Below the pieces are notes generated by a model. That model was given only the letters and a program-made list of their open reading frames with translations. It was not told where the DNA came from and did not search any database. 33,779 bases of DNA, taken from NCBI GenBank assembly GCA_027364655.1, contig DAHXOX010000040.1, positions 1 to 33,779 on the forward strand, read 5' to 3'. Every line of letters starts with the position of its first letter. The stretch's first letter is position 1. Shown here in pieces: positions 10,004 through 20,597 of this stretch. The stretch is from Paludibacter sp. (lineage in GTDB: Bacteria; Bacteroidota; Bacteroidia; Bacteroidales; Paludibacteraceae). A program made the translations under genes and the position numbers.

Positions 10004-10699
10004 TCAACCGTGTTTACTGATCTCTTCCAAACGATCACGATGAAGAATGGAGACCGTTTTATCGGTCAGCGCAATAATGCCTTCTTTCTCAAATATTTTC
10101 AAAATCTTCACGGCGCTTTCGGTCGAGATGCCGGCAAAATCGGCAATCTCCTTGCGCGTAAGCAGAGCAGTAACTTCCAATCCATCAAAATTATCGGACG
10201 ATAAGTAAAGCAACGCATCGGCCATGTGGCCATTCATCTGCTTGTAAATCAAATTGCGTACCACACTGTAGAAACGAGTATTTTGTTCGCAATAACGTTT
10301 AATGATGGTGTAAGCAAACATACCGTTTTGTTGCACTACTTTGCGGAGAGCCTCTTTCTCGATGAGAAAAACCTGAGTTTCCATCAAAGCCGTAGCTGAA
10401 TAAGGATAGATAGCCTCGCCAAACACGGCAGATAATCCAAGAAATTCATTGGGCTGCACGAGTTGCAAGTTATAGTTATGAATGCTGTCACCTTCGACAT
10501 ACTGTTTCACCAACCCGCTCATGATGAACAAAACATACGATGCAAACGTGCCTTGCTTTGTCAAGGTTTCTCCTTTACGAAACACGACTTGCGTTTTACT
10601 GGCGCGAATTAATGCCGCTTCTTCTTCCGAAAGCATTTGAAAACACGGGGCTTGTATATCGCAAATAAAGTCCTGATCAGTTTCTATTAATGGTTTCAT
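10004..10699 (-). CDS. Crp/Fnr-family transcriptional regulator (first of two)
   Basis: cNMP-like fold (GETLTKQGTFASYVLFIMSGLVKQY) and C-terminal HTH TRKEIADFAGISTESAVKILKIFEKEGII. Confidence 0.9.
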   Translation of the reverse strand: MKPLIETDQDFICDIQAPCFQMLSEEEAALIRASKTQVVFRKGETLTKQGTFASYVLFIMSGLVKQYVEGDSIHNYNLQLVQPNEFLGLSAVFGEAIYPYSATALMETQVFLIEKEALRKVVQQNGMFAYTIIKRYCEQNTRFYSVVRNLIYKQMNGHMADALLYLSSDNFDGLEVTALLTRKEIADFAGISTESAVKILKIFEKEGIIALTDKTVSILHRDRLEEISKHG

Positions 10700-11080: not shown

Positions 11081-11497
11081 ATGAAACAGTCTCTCATAAC
11101 CACCTGGAAAGGCAACATGCAGTTTGATGCATTAGTAAGCGGACACCATGTAGTGATGGATGCGTTACCTATTGTTGGAGGAGAAGATAGCGGGCCTCGT
11201 CCAAAAGAATTAATGCTTGCTTCGTTGGCAGGCTGCACGGGGATGGACGTTGTCTCCATCTTAAAAAAAATGCGTGTCGAGATCGAGTCGTTTGACATCG
11301 AAATCATTGCCGATATTACGGAAGAACACCCGAAGCATTACACGGCTATGCACATCATCTACAAACTAAAAGGCAAAGACATTGATCCTGAAAAGGCGAA
11401 GAAAGCAGTCGATCTTTCGCAAGAGAAATATTGCGGTGTTTCCGAAGCCTATCGCAAAGCGATGACTTTGACTTACGAAATTCAAATAACCGAATAA
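11081..11497 (+). CDS. OsmC-family protein
   Basis: GGEDSGPRPKELMLASLAGCTGMDVVSILKKM and LSQEKYCGVSEAYRKAM cysteine regions. Confidence 0.88.
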   Translation: MKQSLITTWKGNMQFDALVSGHHVVMDALPIVGGEDSGPRPKELMLASLAGCTGMDVVSILKKMRVEIESFDIEIIADITEEHPKHYTAMHIIYKLKGKDIDPEKAKKAVDLSQEKYCGVSEAYRKAMTLTYEIQITE

Positions 11498-11525
11498 ACA
11501 AAAACCAATTTAGCATTCCAATTTT

Positions 11526-11879
11526 ATGTTGTACACAAATTTAAAACACGTTGAATCAGGCGCTCAGCTTGAAAAAATTATTAGTGAAAACGAAAACGTC
11601 ATGGTTATCTGCGGTCGCATGGGACCCATGTGTATTCCTGTTTATGGCATTGCCGAAGAACTCGAAGATACCTACAAAAACGTACAATTTTTCGACATGG
11701 AGTTTGACAATCCAGAAGCTGTGGTGATTCGTCGTTTACCTGAAGTAAGAGGATTTATGGGCATTCCTTTCACTATTTATTACAAGAATGGAAAAGTGGT
11801 AAAAGCCACGTCAAGTATTCAAAGCAAACAACAAATCACAACGATTTTAGATACCGAATTCGGAGCATCTGCAAAATAA
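11526..11879 (+). CDS. Thioredoxin-fold protein with atypical CGRMGPMC motif
   Basis: The usual WCGPC position reads MVICGRMGPMCIPVYGIAEEL. A cis-Pro-like region GIPFTIYYKNGKVV remains. Confidence 0.75.
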   Translation: MLYTNLKHVESGAQLEKIISENENVMVICGRMGPMCIPVYGIAEELEDTYKNVQFFDMEFDNPEAVVIRRLPEVRGFMGIPFTIYYKNGKVVKATSSIQSKQQITTILDTEFGASAK

Positions 11880-11885
11880 GAAACG

Positions 11886-12830
11886 ATGAACGAAGTAAAA
11901 AAGTATGATGTCATTGTTGTCGGTGGCGGACCTGCCGGACTGACAGCGGGTATCTATTTGTCGAGAGCACGCTTGAAAACAGTTATTCTGAACGAAGGAA
12001 CCATTGGCGGCCAAATGATTCTCACGCATGAAATTGCAAACTACCCGGGTGTGGAAAGCATCAACGGATTTCAGTTGGCAAACATCATGAAGAAACAGGC
12101 TAAAAGTTTTGGCTGTGACCTCATTTCCAATATCAACATTGCCTCAATGGATATTGAAAGCGATACTAAAACAATCACCCTCACCGATGGACAAACCTTC
12201 AGCAGTGACGCCGTCATATTAACTCCCGGCGGAAGACCCCGCACATTGGGAGTACCCGGCGAAGGGAAATTCAAAGGGCGCGGCATTTCGTATTGTGCTA
12301 CGTGCGATGGCGATTTCTTTACAGATAAGGAGATTATAGTTGTCGGTGGCGGAAACTCGGCTCTTGAAGAAGCAGTATCGTTGACTAAATACGCGACTAA
12401 AGTCACTATTGTTCATCAGTTCGATAATTTTCAAGCATTTGAACATGCTATTGAAGAGGCAACGAACCATCCAAAGATCAACTTTATCATGGAATCGACC
12501 ATTGCGGCATTTTATGGTGAAGAAAATCTGGAGCATGTCGATATTCTCAATTTGAAAACCAATGCAATCACGCCTTTCAAAACCGATGGTGTCTTCATTT
12601 TCATCGGGTATGTTGCAAACACAGAAAGTTTGAAAGGAATTGTCACCCTGAACGAATGGGGCGAAATTGTCGTAAACAGCGATTTAGAAACAAATCTTCC
12701 AGGTGTTTTTGCTGCCGGCGATTGCATTGCAAAACGATACCGGCAAGTAACCACATCCGTGGGCGAAGGTACCATTGCTGCGTTGGCGGCTTCCAACTAC
12801 CTGCATCTCAAGAAACAGACAAACAAGTAA
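11886..12830 (+). CDS. trxB: Thioredoxin reductase-like FAD/NAD(P) oxidoreductase
   Basis: VVGGGPAGLTAGIYLSRA, redox CATCDG, VVGGGNSALEEA, and C-terminal GVFAAGDC. Confidence 0.92.
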   Translation: MNEVKKYDVIVVGGGPAGLTAGIYLSRARLKTVILNEGTIGGQMILTHEIANYPGVESINGFQLANIMKKQAKSFGCDLISNINIASMDIESDTKTITLTDGQTFSSDAVILTPGGRPRTLGVPGEGKFKGRGISYCATCDGDFFTDKEIIVVGGGNSALEEAVSLTKYATKVTIVHQFDNFQAFEHAIEEATNHPKINFIMESTIAAFYGEENLEHVDILNLKTNAITPFKTDGVFIFIGYVANTESLKGIVTLNEWGEIVVNSDLETNLPGVFAAGDCIAKRYRQVTTSVGEGTIAALAASNYLHLKKQTNK

Positions 12831-12851
12831 TTAATTTATAAACGGATTGTC

Positions 12852-13271
12852 ATGACTATATTTTTCATCGTATTAGGTGTTATTCTCGTTGTAGTGTTTG
12901 GATACGGATTTTACACGACGCAGAAAATGAAAAAAGCACCGGATGTTCCTAATAGTGCTAAAATTAAGATCCTTTCCGACAAAATATTTGCACAACAAAT
13001 TAAAAACGGCATCGTGTTGGTTGACTTTTGGGCCTCATGGTGTATGCCTTGCAAAATGATGGCTCCCATCTTGAACGATGTGGCCGAACATGCCACCGGA
13101 AATGTAACCATTGCCAAGCTCAATGTAGAACAAAACCAGAGCACAGCTACAAAATATAAAGTGCGTAGCATCCCAACCATGATTTTGTTCAAAGACGGAA
13201 AAGAAATGAACCGCATCGTGGGTGTAAAACAGAAAGATTATATATTGAAGGAAATTGCAAAGGTGCAGTAA
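12852..13271 (+). CDS. Thioredoxin with N-terminal membrane anchor
   Basis: MTIFFIVLGVILVVVFGYGFY transmembrane segment, then VDFWASWCMPCKMMAP and VRSIPTMILFKDGK. Confidence 0.9.
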   Translation: MTIFFIVLGVILVVVFGYGFYTTQKMKKAPDVPNSAKIKILSDKIFAQQIKNGIVLVDFWASWCMPCKMMAPILNDVAEHATGNVTIAKLNVEQNQSTATKYKVRSIPTMILFKDGKEMNRIVGVKQKDYILKEIAKVQ

Positions 13272-13288
13272 AAGCTCATTTTAACTCC

Positions 13289-13792
13289 ATGAATAAAGTC
13301 ACGAAAGCACTGATTAACAAACGCTTTTACATCCTTATTGTATTAGGTGTTGCCCTATATTTTGCCGTATCAACCTATCACGTTTCATTGTGGTATGTTT
13401 TGGGTGGAGGAGTTTTATTGGGAGTCATTTTTGGAAAAGTGTTCTGTCGTTGGGTTTGTCCGATGGGATTAATCATGGAGCTGCTTATGAGTTTCAGTCC
13501 TGATACCAAGGTACGACAAATGTATCAATACCATAAGATCGGATGTCCCATTGCCTGGATTTCAGGCTGGCTTAACAAAATGTCGATCTTTCACATCAAA
13601 CTAAAAACGGATAGTTGTAAAAACTGTGGATTGTGCGACAAGAAATGCTACATCGTGGCGATGGAACCGACTAAATACAGCCTTTACAAGACAGATAAGA
13701 TAAATCCGGGTAATAGTTATACCTGTTCGAAATGCCTACAATGTGTTGCCGCATGTCCTAATGGCAGTCTGAAATACAAAGTAAGGAAGTAA
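13289..13792 (+). CDS. NapH/CcoG-like membrane 4Fe-4S polyferredoxin
   Basis: FCRWVCPMGLIMELL motif, hydrophobic N-terminus, and two clusters (CKNCGLCDKKC and CSKCLQCVAACP). Confidence 0.82.
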   Translation: MNKVTKALINKRFYILIVLGVALYFAVSTYHVSLWYVLGGGVLLGVIFGKVFCRWVCPMGLIMELLMSFSPDTKVRQMYQYHKIGCPIAWISGWLNKMSIFHIKLKTDSCKNCGLCDKKCYIVAMEPTKYSLYKTDKINPGNSYTCSKCLQCVAACPNGSLKYKVRK

Positions 13793-13872: not shown

Positions 13873-14553
13873 CTATCCTTTTTGACTGATTTGTTCCAGA
13901 AGTTCTTCGTTTAAGATGGTGATTTCTTTCCCATTCTGGTAAATGATATGCGCTGAATGAAACTCACCTAAGATGCGACTGACACTTTCGCGCGAAATTC
14001 CCATCCAATCGCCCAATTCTTGTCGCGAAAAGGGTAACAAAAACACAAGTGAGTTGTAAATTTCACGTGCAAAATAGAGCAAAGCATCCGCCACTCTGCC
14101 GTTAGCTTGTTTTTGAGCTAAATTGAGGGATACCTGAAAACTCTTTATCTCATTTTGACTCAACGCTAAGATAATTTGATAGGCAAAATCGCCATTTTCT
14201 AAAATGAATTTCTTAAAAACATGAATGTCTATGAAACAAGCCAGCGTTGGTTCAATGGTCGTAGCCGAAAACCGATTGATGGAATCGCCCAAAACACCAG
14301 GCAAACATAAGTAAGAAGGAGCTTTTGTCAAACGCAGTATGCGGTCTTTAGAAAAATTATCTGTGTGAATTTTCACCAATCCCCGTTTCAGATAAACCAC
14401 ATTGGTAGAAATGGCGTTCTCTTTGAAAATGATTTCACCGGGTTTAAATTCAACTTGGGAGCAGTGATCGGTTAAGTCATTCAATTGATTTTTTATCAAT
14501 TTAATAGCGGAATCCGACTGTAAGATACAATTTTGGCAAAGCGTTTTTTGCAT
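13873..14553 (-). CDS. Crp/Fnr-family transcriptional regulator (second)
   Basis: Effector domain (GEIIFKENAISTNVVYLKRGLVKIHT) and HTH SRQELGDWMGISRESVSRILGEF; N-terminal CQNC. Confidence 0.92.
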   Translation of the reverse strand: MQKTLCQNCILQSDSAIKLIKNQLNDLTDHCSQVEFKPGEIIFKENAISTNVVYLKRGLVKIHTDNFSKDRILRLTKAPSYLCLPGVLGDSINRFSATTIEPTLACFIDIHVFKKFILENGDFAYQIILALSQNEIKSFQVSLNLAQKQANGRVADALLYFAREIYNSLVFLLPFSRQELGDWMGISRESVSRILGEFHSAHIIYQNGKEITILNEELLEQISQKG

Positions 14554-14598: not shown

Positions 14599-14614
14599 TG
14601 TGATACATATCACA
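14599..14614. promoter_or_regulatory. Candidate CRP-type operator TGTGATACATATCACA
   Basis: TGTGA-N6-TCACA with a perfect 7-bp inverted repeat, located between the divergent Crp/Fnr gene and the DsrE/Qmo operon. Confidence 0.7.
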
Positions 14615-14777: not shown

Positions 14778-15326
14778 ATGGCAAATGAATTAGAATTGCA
14801 AGTTAAACAGCTTGAAGCTCAATTGAAAGAACTACAAGAAAATCAGCCAAAAGATCAACTTTCTATTATCGTTTTTTCCGGAGATTTAGATAAAGTACTT
14901 GCTGCGTTTATTATTGCAACGGGAGCACGTGCCATGGATTCAGAAGTGAAAATGTTTTTTACATTCTGGGGCACCTCAATCTTACGAGCAAAAAACAAAT
15001 CAGGCAATGGCAAAGACTTTATGTCAAACATGTTAGGTTGGATGTTACCTAAAGGAAGCACTCAAGCTAAACTTTCAAAACTCAATATGGGAGGCATGGG
15101 AACCGAAATGCTCAAGTCTGTGATGAAGAAGAAAAATGTTTCATCGTTAGAATCATTGATCGAAGTTGCCGGAGAATTAGGTGTTGAAATTGCGATTTGT
15201 CAAATGAGCATGGATTTGATGGGATTCAAAAAAGAAGAGATGATCGATTATCCTAATTTGTCGTATGTTGGAGTAGGGACGTATCTTTCGGATGCACAAG
15301 AAAGCAAAATACAATTATTCATTTAA
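14778..15326 (+). CDS. DsrE/DsrF-like (DsrE2 type) sulfurtransferase-family protein
   Basis: LSIIVFSGDLDKVLAAFIIATGARAMDSEVKMFFTFWG and VEIAICQMSMDLMG, a DsrE2-like fold with conserved Cys; N-terminal coiled-coil-like segment. Confidence 0.85.
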   Translation: MANELELQVKQLEAQLKELQENQPKDQLSIIVFSGDLDKVLAAFIIATGARAMDSEVKMFFTFWGTSILRAKNKSGNGKDFMSNMLGWMLPKGSTQAKLSKLNMGGMGTEMLKSVMKKKNVSSLESLIEVAGELGVEIAICQMSMDLMGFKKEEMIDYPNLSYVGVGTYLSDAQESKIQLFI

Positions 15327-15343
15327 ATCAAGGAGATATTATT

Positions 15344-15592
15344 ATGACAGTAGAAGAATTAAAAGGCCTGAAAAGTGACAAAGTAGTAGATGCACGCGGA
15401 ACAGCTTGTCCTGGTCCACTTTTGGCAGCAAAAAAAGCAATTGGTGACATTCAACCGGGTCAAATCATGGAAGTTCTTTCAGCCGACGAAGGCACAAAGA
15501 GTGACATTCCAAAATGGTCAAAGAAACAGAATTACGAATATCTTGGTTCAATTGACGAAGATGGCATGTACCGTCTATTTCTAAAAAAATAA
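15344..15592 (+). CDS. TusA-family sulfur carrier protein
   Basis: KVVDARGTACPGPLLAAKKAI contains the TusA CPxP signature. Confidence 0.93.
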   Translation: MTVEELKGLKSDKVVDARGTACPGPLLAAKKAIGDIQPGQIMEVLSADEGTKSDIPKWSKKQNYEYLGSIDEDGMYRLFLKK

Positions 15593-15595
15593 CGC

Positions 15596-15988
15596 ATGAG
15601 CACTAAACCAAAGATTTTGGTTTTCTCGACCGAAAAAATTTCTGATCCCGCGATTGACCTCGCGGGATTATTGAAAAAACATTACCCCAATACAGTTTAT
15701 ACAATCAGTGTTCCTTGCTCAAGCGGCATCAAACCGAGATGGATCATGCAAGCTTATGAGAAAGGTTTTGACGGCGTTTTTATTGCTGCCGACGGCACGG
15801 ATTGTCCATACGGGGAATCATGCGTTGAAAAAACCTCAGACATCATTTCTGTCACACACCAGATGATGAAAGATAAAGGGCTAAAGCCATCACAATTAAA
15901 AATGGCGGCTATCTGCTCTGTGTGCGCCGATCCTTTCGTTGCGCATATTAATAACTTCATGAAGGAACTTGCCAAAAAAGATAATTAA
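15596..15988 (+). CDS. Hydrogenase iron-sulfur subunit / MvhD-like protein
   Basis: VPCSSGIKPRWIMQAYEKGFDGVFIAADGTDCPYGESCVEKTSDII...CSVCADPF matches MvhD-type cysteine spacing in general form. Confidence 0.8.
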   Translation: MSTKPKILVFSTEKISDPAIDLAGLLKKHYPNTVYTISVPCSSGIKPRWIMQAYEKGFDGVFIAADGTDCPYGESCVEKTSDIISVTHQMMKDKGLKPSQLKMAAICSVCADPFVAHINNFMKELAKKDN

Positions 15989-15990
15989 TT

Positions 15991-17313
15991 ATGACAGATA
16001 ACCAGAATGCTGCCGCAACCTGCTTAGACGAAACACAATTTGACGTCATGGTTATTGGAGCCGGCATTGCAGGAGCAGAATCGGCGCTCAAACTGGGTGA
16101 TATGGGATATAAGGTTCTGTTAGTAGAAAAGGAACCTTCCATAGGAGGGAAAATGATTCTCCTCAGCAAAGTATTTCCAACGCTCGATTGCGCCGCTTGC
16201 ATCACCACCCCAAAAGTATCGGAAACTGCGAGACATCCGAACATCACCATCCACACCTTAACTGAAGTAGATACGATTCAGCGCAATGCTGATCGTCATT
16301 TCTCGGTTCAACTAACCAAGAAACCCCGTTACGTGGTTGAAAAAGATTGCACCGGATGTCAGGAATGCGAAAATGTTTGTCCTGTGATCACCAAAGATCA
16401 GTTTCAATTTGATTTGACAGCGCGAAAAGCAGTTTACATCCCGTTCAACATTGCGAATCCCCGCATTGCTTTAATTGATATTGAAAACTGCATGCTTTGC
16501 GGCGCTTGTGAAAAAGCATGTCCATCAAATTGTATTGATTTCACACAAAAAGAGCAACAGCTTCAAATCACAGCTAAGTCGGTGATTGTAGCTACAGGTT
16601 TCAAACTGTTCGACCCGATCTCCATTGAACGATACGGCTATGGACGCTACAAAAACGTCATTACTTCCATGCAAATGGAACGTGAATTAGCACCAACACG
16701 CCCTTACAACAACGTATTACGTCCATCCGACGGGAAAATTCCCGACAAGATTGCTTATGTTTTTTGTACAGGATCGCGCGACCACACCGTTGGCAACCCG
16801 ATCTGTTCACAAGTTTGCTGTATGTACTCCACCAAGCAAGCCCAATTGTTGATGGGAGCTTTACCAATGGCCGATATTTCGCTTTACTACATTAATATAC
16901 GCGCTTTTGGAAAAGGTTATAACGAGTTTTATCTTCAGGCCAAAGACATGGGTGCAAACTATGTGAAAGGGAAAATCGGAAAGATCACGGAAAAAGAGAA
17001 TGGAAACCTGATTTTGCGCTTTGAAGATATCCTTACCGGCAAAGTGACTGAAAAAGAACATGACATGGTAGTTCTTTCTGTGGGTTTATTGGCTAATCCG
17101 GCTATTACGCAAGTATTTAAAGGCGAAAAATTAGAATTAGACCCGATTAATTACATTCAACAACCGAACATGCTTCAAAGTCCCGCACAAACTTCTCTGG
17201 AAGGAGTATTTGTGGCAGGTACGGCAACAGGACCAATGGATATACCTGACACAATCATGTCGGCAGGTGCTGCAGCTACCGAAACGTCAAGCTACTTAAA
17301 ACGATTGTCATGA
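15991..17313 (+). CDS. QmoA/HdrA-like FAD and 4Fe-4S protein
   Basis: VIGAGIAGAESALKLGDMG, FPTLDCAACITTPK, CTGCQECENVCPV, CMLCGACEKACPSNCI, and VFCTGSRDHTVGNPICSQVCCMYSTKQA, which are HdrA-family motifs. Confidence 0.88.
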   Translation: MTDNQNAAATCLDETQFDVMVIGAGIAGAESALKLGDMGYKVLLVEKEPSIGGKMILLSKVFPTLDCAACITTPKVSETARHPNITIHTLTEVDTIQRNADRHFSVQLTKKPRYVVEKDCTGCQECENVCPVITKDQFQFDLTARKAVYIPFNIANPRIALIDIENCMLCGACEKACPSNCIDFTQKEQQLQITAKSVIVATGFKLFDPISIERYGYGRYKNVITSMQMERELAPTRPYNNVLRPSDGKIPDKIAYVFCTGSRDHTVGNPICSQVCCMYSTKQAQLLMGALPMADISLYYINIRAFGKGYNEFYLQAKDMGANYVKGKIGKITEKENGNLILRFEDILTGKVTEKEHDMVVLSVGLLANPAITQVFKGEKLELDPINYIQQPNMLQSPAQTSLEGVFVAGTATGPMDIPDTIMSAGAAATETSSYLKRLS

Positions 17314-19250
17314 AGAAAAAGATAGGTGTTTATGTGTGCCACTGCGGAGGCAACATATCCGATTATGTTGATATAGAAAAGGTTAAAGATGCTGTCAGAG
17401 ACGAAGCTGACGTTTTCTTGGTAAAGAATACGCTTTTTGCTTGTGCCGATTCTTCCCAAAAGATGATGGAAGAAGACATTAAAACACAAGGATTGGATGC
17501 TATGGTCGTTGCTTCGTGCTCGCCCAAACTTCACTTGAATACATTTCGCGGCGTTGCTCAACGTGCAGGACTAAATCCTTACAACTACGTTCAGGTAAAC
17601 ATTCGCGAACAAGACTCATGGGCACACTCTGATAATCCTGCCGGAGCAACCGAAAAAGCCATTCAATTGGTGAAAGCGGGTATTGCTCGTGCCAAAGAAT
17701 CGGAAGCGCTGACTTCGATGAAAATCGCCACAACCAATGCAGTTGCTGTAATAGGAGCTGGGGTTGGCGGCATGCGTACCGCACTGGGTTTGGCTGACAT
17801 GGGAACAGAAGTTTACTTGATCGAAAAGTCATTCTTTGTAGGTGGTCGCACCGCTCAATGGGGTTCTGTTGCTCCCACCAACGATCGTGGAGATGTCTTA
17901 ACAGCCGGATTATTTAATGAGATTCAAAAACGCAGCAATATTAAATTGTTTACGGGAGCCGAGCTGATTGAAAAAACCGGAAGTGTAGGGAATTTCGACA
18001 TTAAAGTAAAAATTCATCCTCGCGGGTTTGACGGTACTGCAACGGCAGATGACATTCAAAAGGCGGTAAAAGCATGTCCCGTTTCAACAACGGATGAATT
18101 TAATTTCGGATTGACTCAACGAACAGCCATTTTAACCCCGCAGAAAGGACAATACCCGCAACAACCGGCTATTGACAAAGCCCTTTGTAATCAATGCGGA
18201 GCTTGCCAAAAAATCAATTCTGCCTTTCAACCGGCTTCCACAAACGAAGAAATTCTAACGTTACACATTGGTGGTTTTGTCGCTAATACCGGCTTTGATC
18301 CGTATGAACCTGCAAAAGGAGAATATGGCTATGGCGAAATTGACAACGTCATTACCCTACCCCAGTTAAAGCGTTTGATTGAGTTGAACGATAATGAATT
18401 AGTTTTCAAAGGCAAAAAAGTAAAGAAGATTGCCTATATCTATTGCGTTGGTAGCCGGCAGGATGATGATGAAGGTAAAAATAAATATTGCTCGCGTTAT
18501 TGCTGTACATCGGCCACGCACACAGGAGTTACCGTCAAGAACAAATACAAAGATATTCTGAATTATCACTTTAACCGTGGCATCCGCACGTATGGCAAAG
18601 CAGAATTGATTTACGGACAAGCCTCCCAACAAGGAGACGTCTTCTTACAATTTACCCTCGACAGCATTCCGCAAGTGGAACGCAAACACAACAAGACGTA
18701 TGTGAAGGTAAAGGATATTCTGACTGCAGGAAAAACCATCGAGACAGATGCCGATTTGGTGGTTTTGGTAACCGGAATGGTTCCTCGTGAAAACGTTAAA
18801 TTAGGCCATTTATTGAAAATACCTGAAGGTCGCGACCATTTCTTCAATGAAATCCACATGAAGCTCAAGCCGGTGGAAACAGTGATTGACGGAGTGATGA
18901 TTGCAGGGACAAGTCAAGCGCCTAAAAACATTCTGGAAACACTCAATTCATCGATGGCCGCTGCAGCTAAAGTCAATTCGGTGTTGACAAAAGGCGAATT
19001 GTCATTGGAACCAACTTTAGCCAAAGTGAATCCGGGAGCTTGCACCTGGTGCGGCAAATGTGCCGAAGCATGTCCGTTCGATGCCATTGTGCAAGTTGAC
19101 AATGAGGGGAAAATGGTGGCCAAAGTCAATGAGTCAAACTGTAAAGGTTGTGGTATGTGTACTCCTGTTTGTCCGACAGATGCCATTGATCTAGATGGAT
19201 TTACAAATGCTCAGATTGGCGCAATGATCGATGCTTTAGCAGAATTATAA
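17310..19250 (+). CDS. QmoB/HdrA-like FAD and 4Fe-4S protein
   Basis: HdrA N-terminus GVYVCHCGGNISDYVDIEKV, FAD motif VIGAGVGGMRTALGLADMG, YCVGSRQ...YCSRYCCTSATH, and C-terminal CTWCGKCAEACPFDAI...CKGCGMCTPVCPTDAI. Overlaps the upstream gene by 4 nt. Confidence 0.88.
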   Translation: MKKKIGVYVCHCGGNISDYVDIEKVKDAVRDEADVFLVKNTLFACADSSQKMMEEDIKTQGLDAMVVASCSPKLHLNTFRGVAQRAGLNPYNYVQVNIREQDSWAHSDNPAGATEKAIQLVKAGIARAKESEALTSMKIATTNAVAVIGAGVGGMRTALGLADMGTEVYLIEKSFFVGGRTAQWGSVAPTNDRGDVLTAGLFNEIQKRSNIKLFTGAELIEKTGSVGNFDIKVKIHPRGFDGTATADDIQKAVKACPVSTTDEFNFGLTQRTAILTPQKGQYPQQPAIDKALCNQCGACQKINSAFQPASTNEEILTLHIGGFVANTGFDPYEPAKGEYGYGEIDNVITLPQLKRLIELNDNELVFKGKKVKKIAYIYCVGSRQDDDEGKNKYCSRYCCTSATHTGVTVKNKYKDILNYHFNRGIRTYGKAELIYGQASQQGDVFLQFTLDSIPQVERKHNKTYVKVKDILTAGKTIETDADLVVLVTGMVPRENVKLGHLLKIPEGRDHFFNEIHMKLKPVETVIDGVMIAGTSQAPKNILETLNSSMAAAAKVNSVLTKGELSLEPTLAKVNPGACTWCGKCAEACPFDAIVQVDNEGKMVAKVNESNCKGCGMCTPVCPTDAIDLDGFTNAQIGAMIDALAEL

Positions 19251-19262
19251 ATAAATGATGCG

Positions 19263-19541
19263 ATGGAAAAGAAAGAAAAAACAATAGATATCATCAAGCA
19301 AGAACGTAAGGTTTCTCCTCAAGTGCTTGAAGACCGGAAAACATACAGCCGAAACCGGAAAGCCATTATGGAGGTGCTTAAGGCAGGACCAAAGTCAATT
19401 CCACAAGTAGCAGCCGAGACTCAACTTTCATTGCCGGATACCACTTATTTTATGATGGCGTTATTTAAATTTGGCGATGTCCAAGTTAACAGCTTAGACG
19501 ATATGGACGAGTATTATTTTTATGAACTGAAAAAAAAATAA
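19263..19541 (+). CDS. Small winged-helix-like protein embedded in the Qmo-like operon
   Basis: YSRNRKAIMEVLKAGPKSIPQVAAETQLSLPDTTYFMMALFKFGDVQV looks like a wHTH. Tight spacing to both neighbours. Confidence 0.65.
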   Translation: MEKKEKTIDIIKQERKVSPQVLEDRKTYSRNRKAIMEVLKAGPKSIPQVAAETQLSLPDTTYFMMALFKFGDVQVNSLDDMDEYYFYELKKK

Positions 19542-19544
19542 GTC

Positions 19545-20597
19545 ATGGCATTGATACAACCTGATCTGACAAAAGAACTCAAAAAATACGGAGCTTTCGA
19601 TTTTAATGCGTGCTACAATTGTGGAACGTGTACTTCTGTTTGCACCCTTTCAACCGAAGACAACTCATTTCCACGTGAAATGGTTCGATACAGTGTTTTA
19701 GGACTGGAAGATGATTTGAAATCATCGCTGAAACCATGGCTTTGTTACTACTGTGGTCAATGTACTGAGAACTGCCCGCAAGAGGCATCTCCAGGTGAAT
19801 TGATGATGTCGTTGCGTCGCTGGTTAACAGCAAAGTATGACTGGACAGGATTGTCCGGATTGTTTTATAAGTCTTGGCCACTCACCGTGCTTGGTTTTAT
19901 CTTAATCCTTGCTGCCGAACTTGGGTTTGCTGCACGCTTGCATTTCCATATCGACCGCATCATGTATTACGGACACTATTTTGAAATGTTTTCGATCTTG
20001 GGCGTGTTTACCATTATACTGCTTCCAAACATCATTCGGATGTGGTATTTCACTATTTTGAAACGAAAGATTAAAGCGCCAATTAAAGCCTATTATACGG
20101 CAATTTCCGACCTGGTTGTGCACATGTTTACGCAAAAACGCTCGTTGGATTGCGATGACAACCAGTTTCGTTGGTTTGAACACTTTATCTTGGTAATCGG
20201 TTATTTAAGTCTGCTCTTCACCACCGTTTTCCTGAATTGGTTTGAGACTCACAATTTGTTTATCAATATTCTTGGGTATGTGGAAAGTATCGTCATCTTT
20301 GTTGTGACGTTCGATTTTGTGAATAGCCGCATCAAAAAGAACAAAGAGATGAACAAGTTTTCGCAACCATCCGATTGGTTTTTTGTTATCTGGTTATTTT
20401 TGATGGGAGTAACTGCTTTTGTGGTACGTTTGTTCATCGATTTGAACTTGATTGAGACAAACAGTTGGGCTTACTTATTTCACTTAATGATTTTGGGTCA
20501 ATGGGCGCTTATCATCGTTCCTTTCGGCAAATGGACACACTTCCTTTATCGTTCGTTTGGCATGTATTTTGCCAAGATTGAAGAATTAGCCAAATAA
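19545..20597 (+). CDS. QmoC-like protein: HdrC ferredoxin domain fused to a membrane (HdrE/heme b-like) domain
   Basis: CYNCGTCTSVC and CYYCGQCTENCP clusters, then several predicted TM segments carrying histidines (YYGHYFEMF, FEHFILVIGYL, YLFHLMILGQW, FGKWTHFLYR). Confidence 0.85.
   Translation: MALIQPDLTKELKKYGAFDFNACYNCGTCTSVCTLSTEDNSFPREMVRYSVLGLEDDLKSSLKPWLCYYCGQCTENCPQEASPGELMMSLRRWLTAKYDWTGLSGLFYKSWPLTVLGFILILAAELGFAARLHFHIDRIMYYGHYFEMFSILGVFTIILLPNIIRMWYFTILKRKIKAPIKAYYTAISDLVVHMFTQKRSLDCDDNQFRWFEHFILVIGYLSLLFTTVFLNWFETHNLFINILGYVESIVIFVVTFDFVNSRIKKNKEMNKFSQPSDWFFVIWLFLMGVTAFVVRLFIDLNLIETNSWAYLFHLMILGQWALIIVPFGKWTHFLYRSFGMYFAKIEELAK

Follow-up and report, generated by a model that had tools for sequence, protein, structure and literature searches.

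The window, by which we mean the whole stretch of 33,779 nucleotides of Paludibacter sp. DNA that was analysed, holds seven packed open reading frames on the forward strand between positions 14778 and 20597, with intergenic gaps of 17, 3, 2, -4, 12, and 3 bases. They encode a DsrE2-like protein, TusA, an MvhD-like protein, two HdrA-like proteins, a winged-helix protein, and a QmoC-like protein. The initial annotation had named this set, and its open reading frames, place, strand, packing, and domains were all borne out. Each named domain was backed by family scans (Pfam), and no protein reached an NCBIfam curated equivalog cut-off; the top NCBIfam matches, all below cut-offs, were to HdrA in the two large subunits and to QmoC in the product of the last gene.

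The first two genes encode sulfur carriers. The DsrE2-like protein (14778..15326, +; PF13686, 2.4e-55; solved relative 3pnx) has the DrsE_2 domain and the conserved cysteine expected of a DsrE2 carrier: C141 is its sole cysteine and was invariant among 51 aligned sequences. It scored 79 bits against NCBIfam DsrE2, below the equivalog cut-off of 210. DsrE2 carriers have two transmembrane helices (PMC12998232); simple hydropathy gave one weak hydrophobic segment for this protein. TusA (15344..15592, +; PF01206, 4e-21) combines the TusA fold with a CPxP cysteine, C22 of its CPGP motif, which was invariant in 66 sequences.

The remaining five genes encode the redox complex. The MvhD/FlpD-like electron entry subunit (15596..15988, +; PF02662, 1.6e-24) is a separate product of 130 amino acids, in which C41, C70, and C76 were invariant and C107 and C110 were kept at 95%. 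HdrA1 (15991..17313, +; QmoA-like in the initial annotation) carries FAD and keeps both HdrA cluster cysteines and two inserted 4Fe-4S ferredoxin clusters. HdrA2 (17310..19250, +; previously QmoB-like) has 646 amino acids and comprises a conserved HdrA N-terminal domain, FAD, and conserved C-terminal ferredoxins (2x[4Fe-4S]) without an MvhD domain; its nearest relative among solved structures is methanogen HdrA. These cysteine patterns are consistent with a division of labour between the two proteins. HdrA1 exceeds 800 amino acids in nine related loci, and in those that were read a GltD-like NAD(P)H-binding insertion lies between the ferredoxin clusters, which suggests that NAD(P)H is one of the electron partners. 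The last gene encodes a QmoC-like HdrC-membrane fusion (19545..20597, +) with two 4Fe-4S clusters and, by hydropathy, about six membrane helices; its eight cluster cysteines, H213, and H332 were invariant, and it scored 153.6 bits against NCBIfam QmoC (NF038018), below the cut-off of 300.

Between HdrA2 and the QmoC-like gene lies the small winged-helix protein (19263..19541, +). Its AlphaFold2 model (pLDDT 91.7) resembles ArsR/MarR folds (best E-value 1.4e-3). This domain is joined to the HdrA2 C-terminus in seven loci, all among the nine with a long HdrA1, and this fusion makes it probable that the protein belongs to the complex as a subunit. A role as regulator of the operon was set aside on the same ground, and since the divergent Crp/Fnr gene with its conserved site is a better candidate.

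That regulator gene (13873..14553, -; PF13545, PF00027) is separated from the operon by a region containing a perfect palindrome, the putative Crp-type operator TGTGATACATATCACA (14599..14614). The pattern TGTGA-N6-TCACA, with at most one mismatch, occurred in 34 of 46 equivalent intergenic regions, where shuffles expect 0.2. Scans for sigma-70 promoters and terminators gave no more than shuffles did. Cysteines C6, C9, and C106 of the regulator were invariant in 35/35 sequences and its recognition helix reads RE..SR; the cysteine spacing recalls Fnr, and so the protein may be an Fe-S or thiol sensor. Just upstream of the operon (11081-13792, +) stand genes for an OsmC-like protein, a thioredoxin-like protein, thioredoxin reductase, thioredoxin, and a NapH-like 4Fe-4S membrane protein in series, and upstream of this thioredoxin cluster a second Crp/Fnr-like gene (10004-10699, -) that grouped with the first by sequence.

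Conservation and distribution of the cluster

GTDB species genomes were scanned once with the QmoC-like protein, yielding 128 relatives, and 80 loci were retained; the titles displayed named Bacteroidota or Chlorobi metagenome-assembled genomes (MAGs). HdrA1 and HdrA2 lay beside QmoC in all 66 Bacteroidota loci with enough sequence. Of these loci, 64 also have MvhD, 63 a DsrE-family protein, and 58 a divergent Crp/Fnr gene. The simple gene caller found TusA in 55 of the 66, and nine of the other 11 gave a tblastn match, the gaps being the fault of the caller. The co-occurrence and the DsrE/TusA adjacency, which the initial annotation had left to be checked, are thus not peculiar to one strain. 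With over 60 other Bacteroidota loci showing the same gene order, conservation of the cluster is far beyond chance. In many uncultured, anaerobic Bacteroidales, sulfur carriers are joined to a membrane electron-transfer complex in one conserved cluster.

The closest relative found was another Paludibacter MAG (L035), with operon proteins 92-99% identical and shared upstream genes. Within the order, a full-length QmoC relative of at least 53% identity was present in 30 of 247 sampled genomes, plus one partial, which places the cluster in about 31 of 247 species; the three other members of the window's own family in this sample all lack such a relative. No relatives were found in the viral contigs scanned. 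Three further loci (L148, L149, and L150) have two HdrA-like genes around a QmoC-like gene and MvhD, beside proteins of 320-490 amino acids and with TusA and DsrE uncalled, and two from other Bacteroidota (L116 and L117) have very large HdrA-like proteins (1087 and 1490 amino acids) near QmoC-like genes.

Ancestry of the HdrA-like subunits and relation to Qmo

The initial annotation had called the complex Qmo-like, and had stated beforehand that trees placing its HdrA-like proteins far from Qmo would refute its reading. We built a quick-search tree of 67 sequences in which the Qmo references came from Chlorobi and Bacteroidales, with no Desulfobacterota Qmo. Internal references were taken from sat-aprBA-qmoABC loci of the Chlorobi type (L121, L122, and L124) and aprBA-qmo loci of Bacteroidales (L142, L143, and L151). 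The aprBA-linked QmoA and QmoB were sisters, forming one group at 100, and HdrA1 and HdrA2 formed two separate groups, each at 100, apart from them. AU tests rejected trees constraining HdrA1 with QmoA (p = 0.021) or HdrA2 with QmoB (p = 0.014). One of the refuting outcomes named in the initial annotation was thus observed. Canonical QmoB also differs in having 707-750 amino acids and a fused MvhD.

Among 49 carrier genomes aprA was found in two only, each of which had its own true qmo genes, including an MvhD-fused QmoB, adjoining aprA. A genome-wide search of the Paludibacter genome gave no aprA over the cut-off, which also answers the initial concern that aprA elsewhere in the genome would make this an ordinary Qmo. 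Judged from sequence, the complex is Qmo-like in architecture only and is not a Qmo descendant. Qmo membership was therefore given up, and what stands of the earlier interpretation is a conserved, quinone-linked complex with a persulfide relay and without sulfate-reduction partners.

Sulfur import genes and candidate partners

In five relatives (L155-L159) a YeeE-type transporter and rhodaneses precede the complex genes in a same-strand operon. TusA stands at the head of the operon in L155-L158, and a Porin_O_P protein is included in L156-L159; in L155 Porin_O_P and some rhodaneses were uncalled. Since transporter and rhodaneses start the operon in these five, the complex is tied to imported sulfane sulfur, which strengthens the proposed link between the quinone-linked complex and a persulfide relay. 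Elsewhere, in L154, the transporter and two rhodaneses are convergent with the complex genes, and the neighbourhood also has SQR-like, DsrC-like, and DsrE-like genes; in L058 the operon is followed, at 11-21 kb of the locus, by Psr-type molybdoenzyme genes, a split YeeE pair, rhodaneses, and SQR-like and DsrC-like genes.

The 404-amino-acid YeeE type occurred in 11 of 38 carrier genomes vs. 0 of 209 others, a comparison that ignores kinship and uses a type defined after seeing the matches. The 38 carriers comprise the 31 above and seven with 43-48% QmoC identity, the module being confirmed at least partly by loci in five of the seven. Sulf_transp proteins taken together were not enriched (12/31 carriers vs. 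77/216 others); only the 404-amino-acid and full-length types were, in a subdivision made after seeing the matches. The Paludibacter genome itself has a full-length YedE, on a contig other than the operon's, and its rhodaneses are scattered.

The absence of sulfate-reduction partners, previously noted for the window, extends to the genome, which lacks aprA, any NIR_SIR protein (siroheme sulfite reductase; genome-wide search), and DsrC. DsrC was accordingly rejected as partner. An NIR_SIR protein was present in 7 of 49 carrier genomes, where the listed matches lay in frames of 561-841 amino acids vs. 379-435 in Chlorobi. The operon has no CCG/HdrB protein and the genome only one, of 246 amino acids with two CCG domains, which by its size is probably LutA-like. 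About a dozen loci have HdrBC close to the operon; it was rejected as partner since it was not enriched (13/31 vs. 68/216) and is missing from the Paludibacter genome. A Psr-type molybdoenzyme, near the operon in five loci, was likewise not enriched genome-wide (7/31 vs. 66/216).

Proposed mechanism and comparison with known systems

We put at somewhat better than even the chance that a complex linked to quinone and probably also to NAD(P)H supplies electrons to TusA/DsrE2-carried sulfur and so reduces carrier-bound persulfide to sulfide. HdrA1, HdrA2, the MvhD-like, winged-helix, and QmoC-like proteins would assemble as a cytoplasm-facing, membrane-anchored complex with TusA and DsrE2 as its own sulfur carriers. 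Imported sulfane sulfur, from thiosulfate or polysulfide, would be loaded onto C22 of TusA and handed to C141 of DsrE2, and the complex would give the electrons that free it as sulfide at a putative site of persulfide reduction. Menaquinol electrons may enter through QmoC. Since menaquinol by itself donates electrons to persulfide only weakly, we assume another donor of lower potential, NAD(P)H or the like, that would feed MvhD/HdrA1, the two streams meeting at the HdrA flavins. The reductive direction is suggested by the absence of oxidative partners. Against the proposal as a whole speak the absence from every operon subunit of a catalytic CCG/HdrB domain, the disulfide reducer of Hdr, and the lack of enrichment of Psr-type molybdoenzymes, HdrB, and all Sulf_transp proteins in carriers, together with the off-contig YedE and scattered rhodaneses of the Paludibacter genome. 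A bolder version, possible but short of probable, is an undescribed respiratory complex that uncultured Bacteroidales carry widely. At its paired HdrA flavins, electrons from menaquinol would be confurcated with those from NAD(P)H or ferredoxin, and protein-carried persulfide would be reduced without HdrB, Dsr, Apr, or a molybdoenzyme.

The opposite direction, in which electrons are drawn from sulfide- or persulfide-loaded carriers into menaquinone by an sHdr-like sulfur-oxidising module without HdrB and LbpA, appears unlikely. TusA, DsrE, and YeeE do serve sulfur oxidation in Hyphomicrobium (PMC11582611), and the surroundings of the operon in L154 and L058 include an SQR-like and a DsrC-like gene; however, the operon lacks a CCG subunit and its genome lacks aprA, siroheme sulfite reductase, and DsrC. 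We give an equally low probability to redox maintenance rather than respiration, that is, a TusA/DsrE persulfide pool balanced for reactive-sulfur detoxification or biosynthesis. The thioredoxin/OsmC cluster just upstream, the Trx-type genes that lie close to the operon in about eight related loci too, and the invariant regulator cysteines would suit this function, but a membrane subunit linked to quinone, together with import genes and a porin inside the operon, suits a substrate used in bulk better. TusA- and YedE-type proteins also have roles in selenium metabolism, and the best NCBIfam match of the 404-amino-acid YeeE is YedE/FdhT; this score (132.8 bits vs. a cut-off of 350) is far too low, and the sharing of the operon by several rhodaneses and DsrE-family carriers further makes it very improbable that selenium rather than sulfur is handled. 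An ordinary Qmo that works with APS reductase, its aprAB and sat genes lying elsewhere in the genome, deserves almost no credence despite the similar overall composition and the QmoC match of the last gene, given the rarity of aprA in carriers, the separate true qmo genes in both genomes that have it, and the split of both HdrA-like subunits from Qmo in the tree.

Returning to persulfide reduction, it is probable that the Bacteroidales carriers exchange electrons with intermediate sulfur compounds in a way not described so far; no description of the operon was found in the titles, abstracts, and passages of the open-access literature searched. If the proposal is true, it would add an electron-transfer complex acting on protein-bound sulfur in one of the commonest anaerobe groups of sediments, digesters, and sulfidic springs, one that Dsr/Apr marker surveys would overlook. 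The compact operon offers a test case for persulfide reduction without HdrB. New here are the YeeE/rhodanese import cassettes, the NAD(P)H-domain HdrA1 variant, the winged-helix/HdrA2 fusion, and the conserved Crp/Fnr site.

Like QmoABC of sulfate reducers and Chlorobi, the complex has two HdrA-like flavoproteins, an HdrC-membrane fusion, an MvhD function, and a quinone link. Unlike it, MvhD is separate rather than fused to QmoB, the two HdrA clades arose separately, both HdrA cluster cysteines (C194 and C197 of 5odc_A) are retained in HdrA1 but one of them in canonical QmoA, and the operon has its own sulfur carriers and no aprBA or sat neighbours. A Qmo-like architecture was thus put together from HdrA parts more than once. 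With methanogen HdrABC-MvhD the complex shares a stand-alone MvhD and, in HdrA2, the nearest relationship among solved structures. It differs by a membrane quinone subunit, two different HdrAs, and the lack of HdrB, hence of a known disulfide-reducing subunit; HdrB with CCG domains, which defines HdrABC, is absent from operon and genome, the 246-amino-acid protein aside. In HdrL-type proteins of Desulfurivibrio and Desulfobacterium an NAD(P)H-binding domain is likewise joined to HdrA (PMC12142623), whereas the GltD-like domain described here is an insertion that separates the two ferredoxin clusters of HdrA1, in nine loci only.

The YTD cluster of sulfur disproportionators also brings together a transporter (YedE), TusA, and DsrE (PMC12998232, PMC13293266). 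In cable bacteria it passes sulfur to DsrC and DsrAB, both missing from the Paludibacter genome, where the relay is instead linked with a redox complex. The sHdr-LbpA system (with TusA, DsrE, and SoxT/YeeE) resembles ours in that sulfur carriers and a YeeE-type importer feed an HdrA-containing complex (PMC11582611). It differs in that sHdr gene clusters contain HdrB1/B2, whereas our operon has no CCG protein and thus no HdrB, no LbpA was seen in it, and a QmoC membrane subunit is present. In E. coli, TsuA/TsuB (YeeE/YeeD) import thiosulfate with a TusA-like partner (PMC11582611), and this pair is the closest known parallel.
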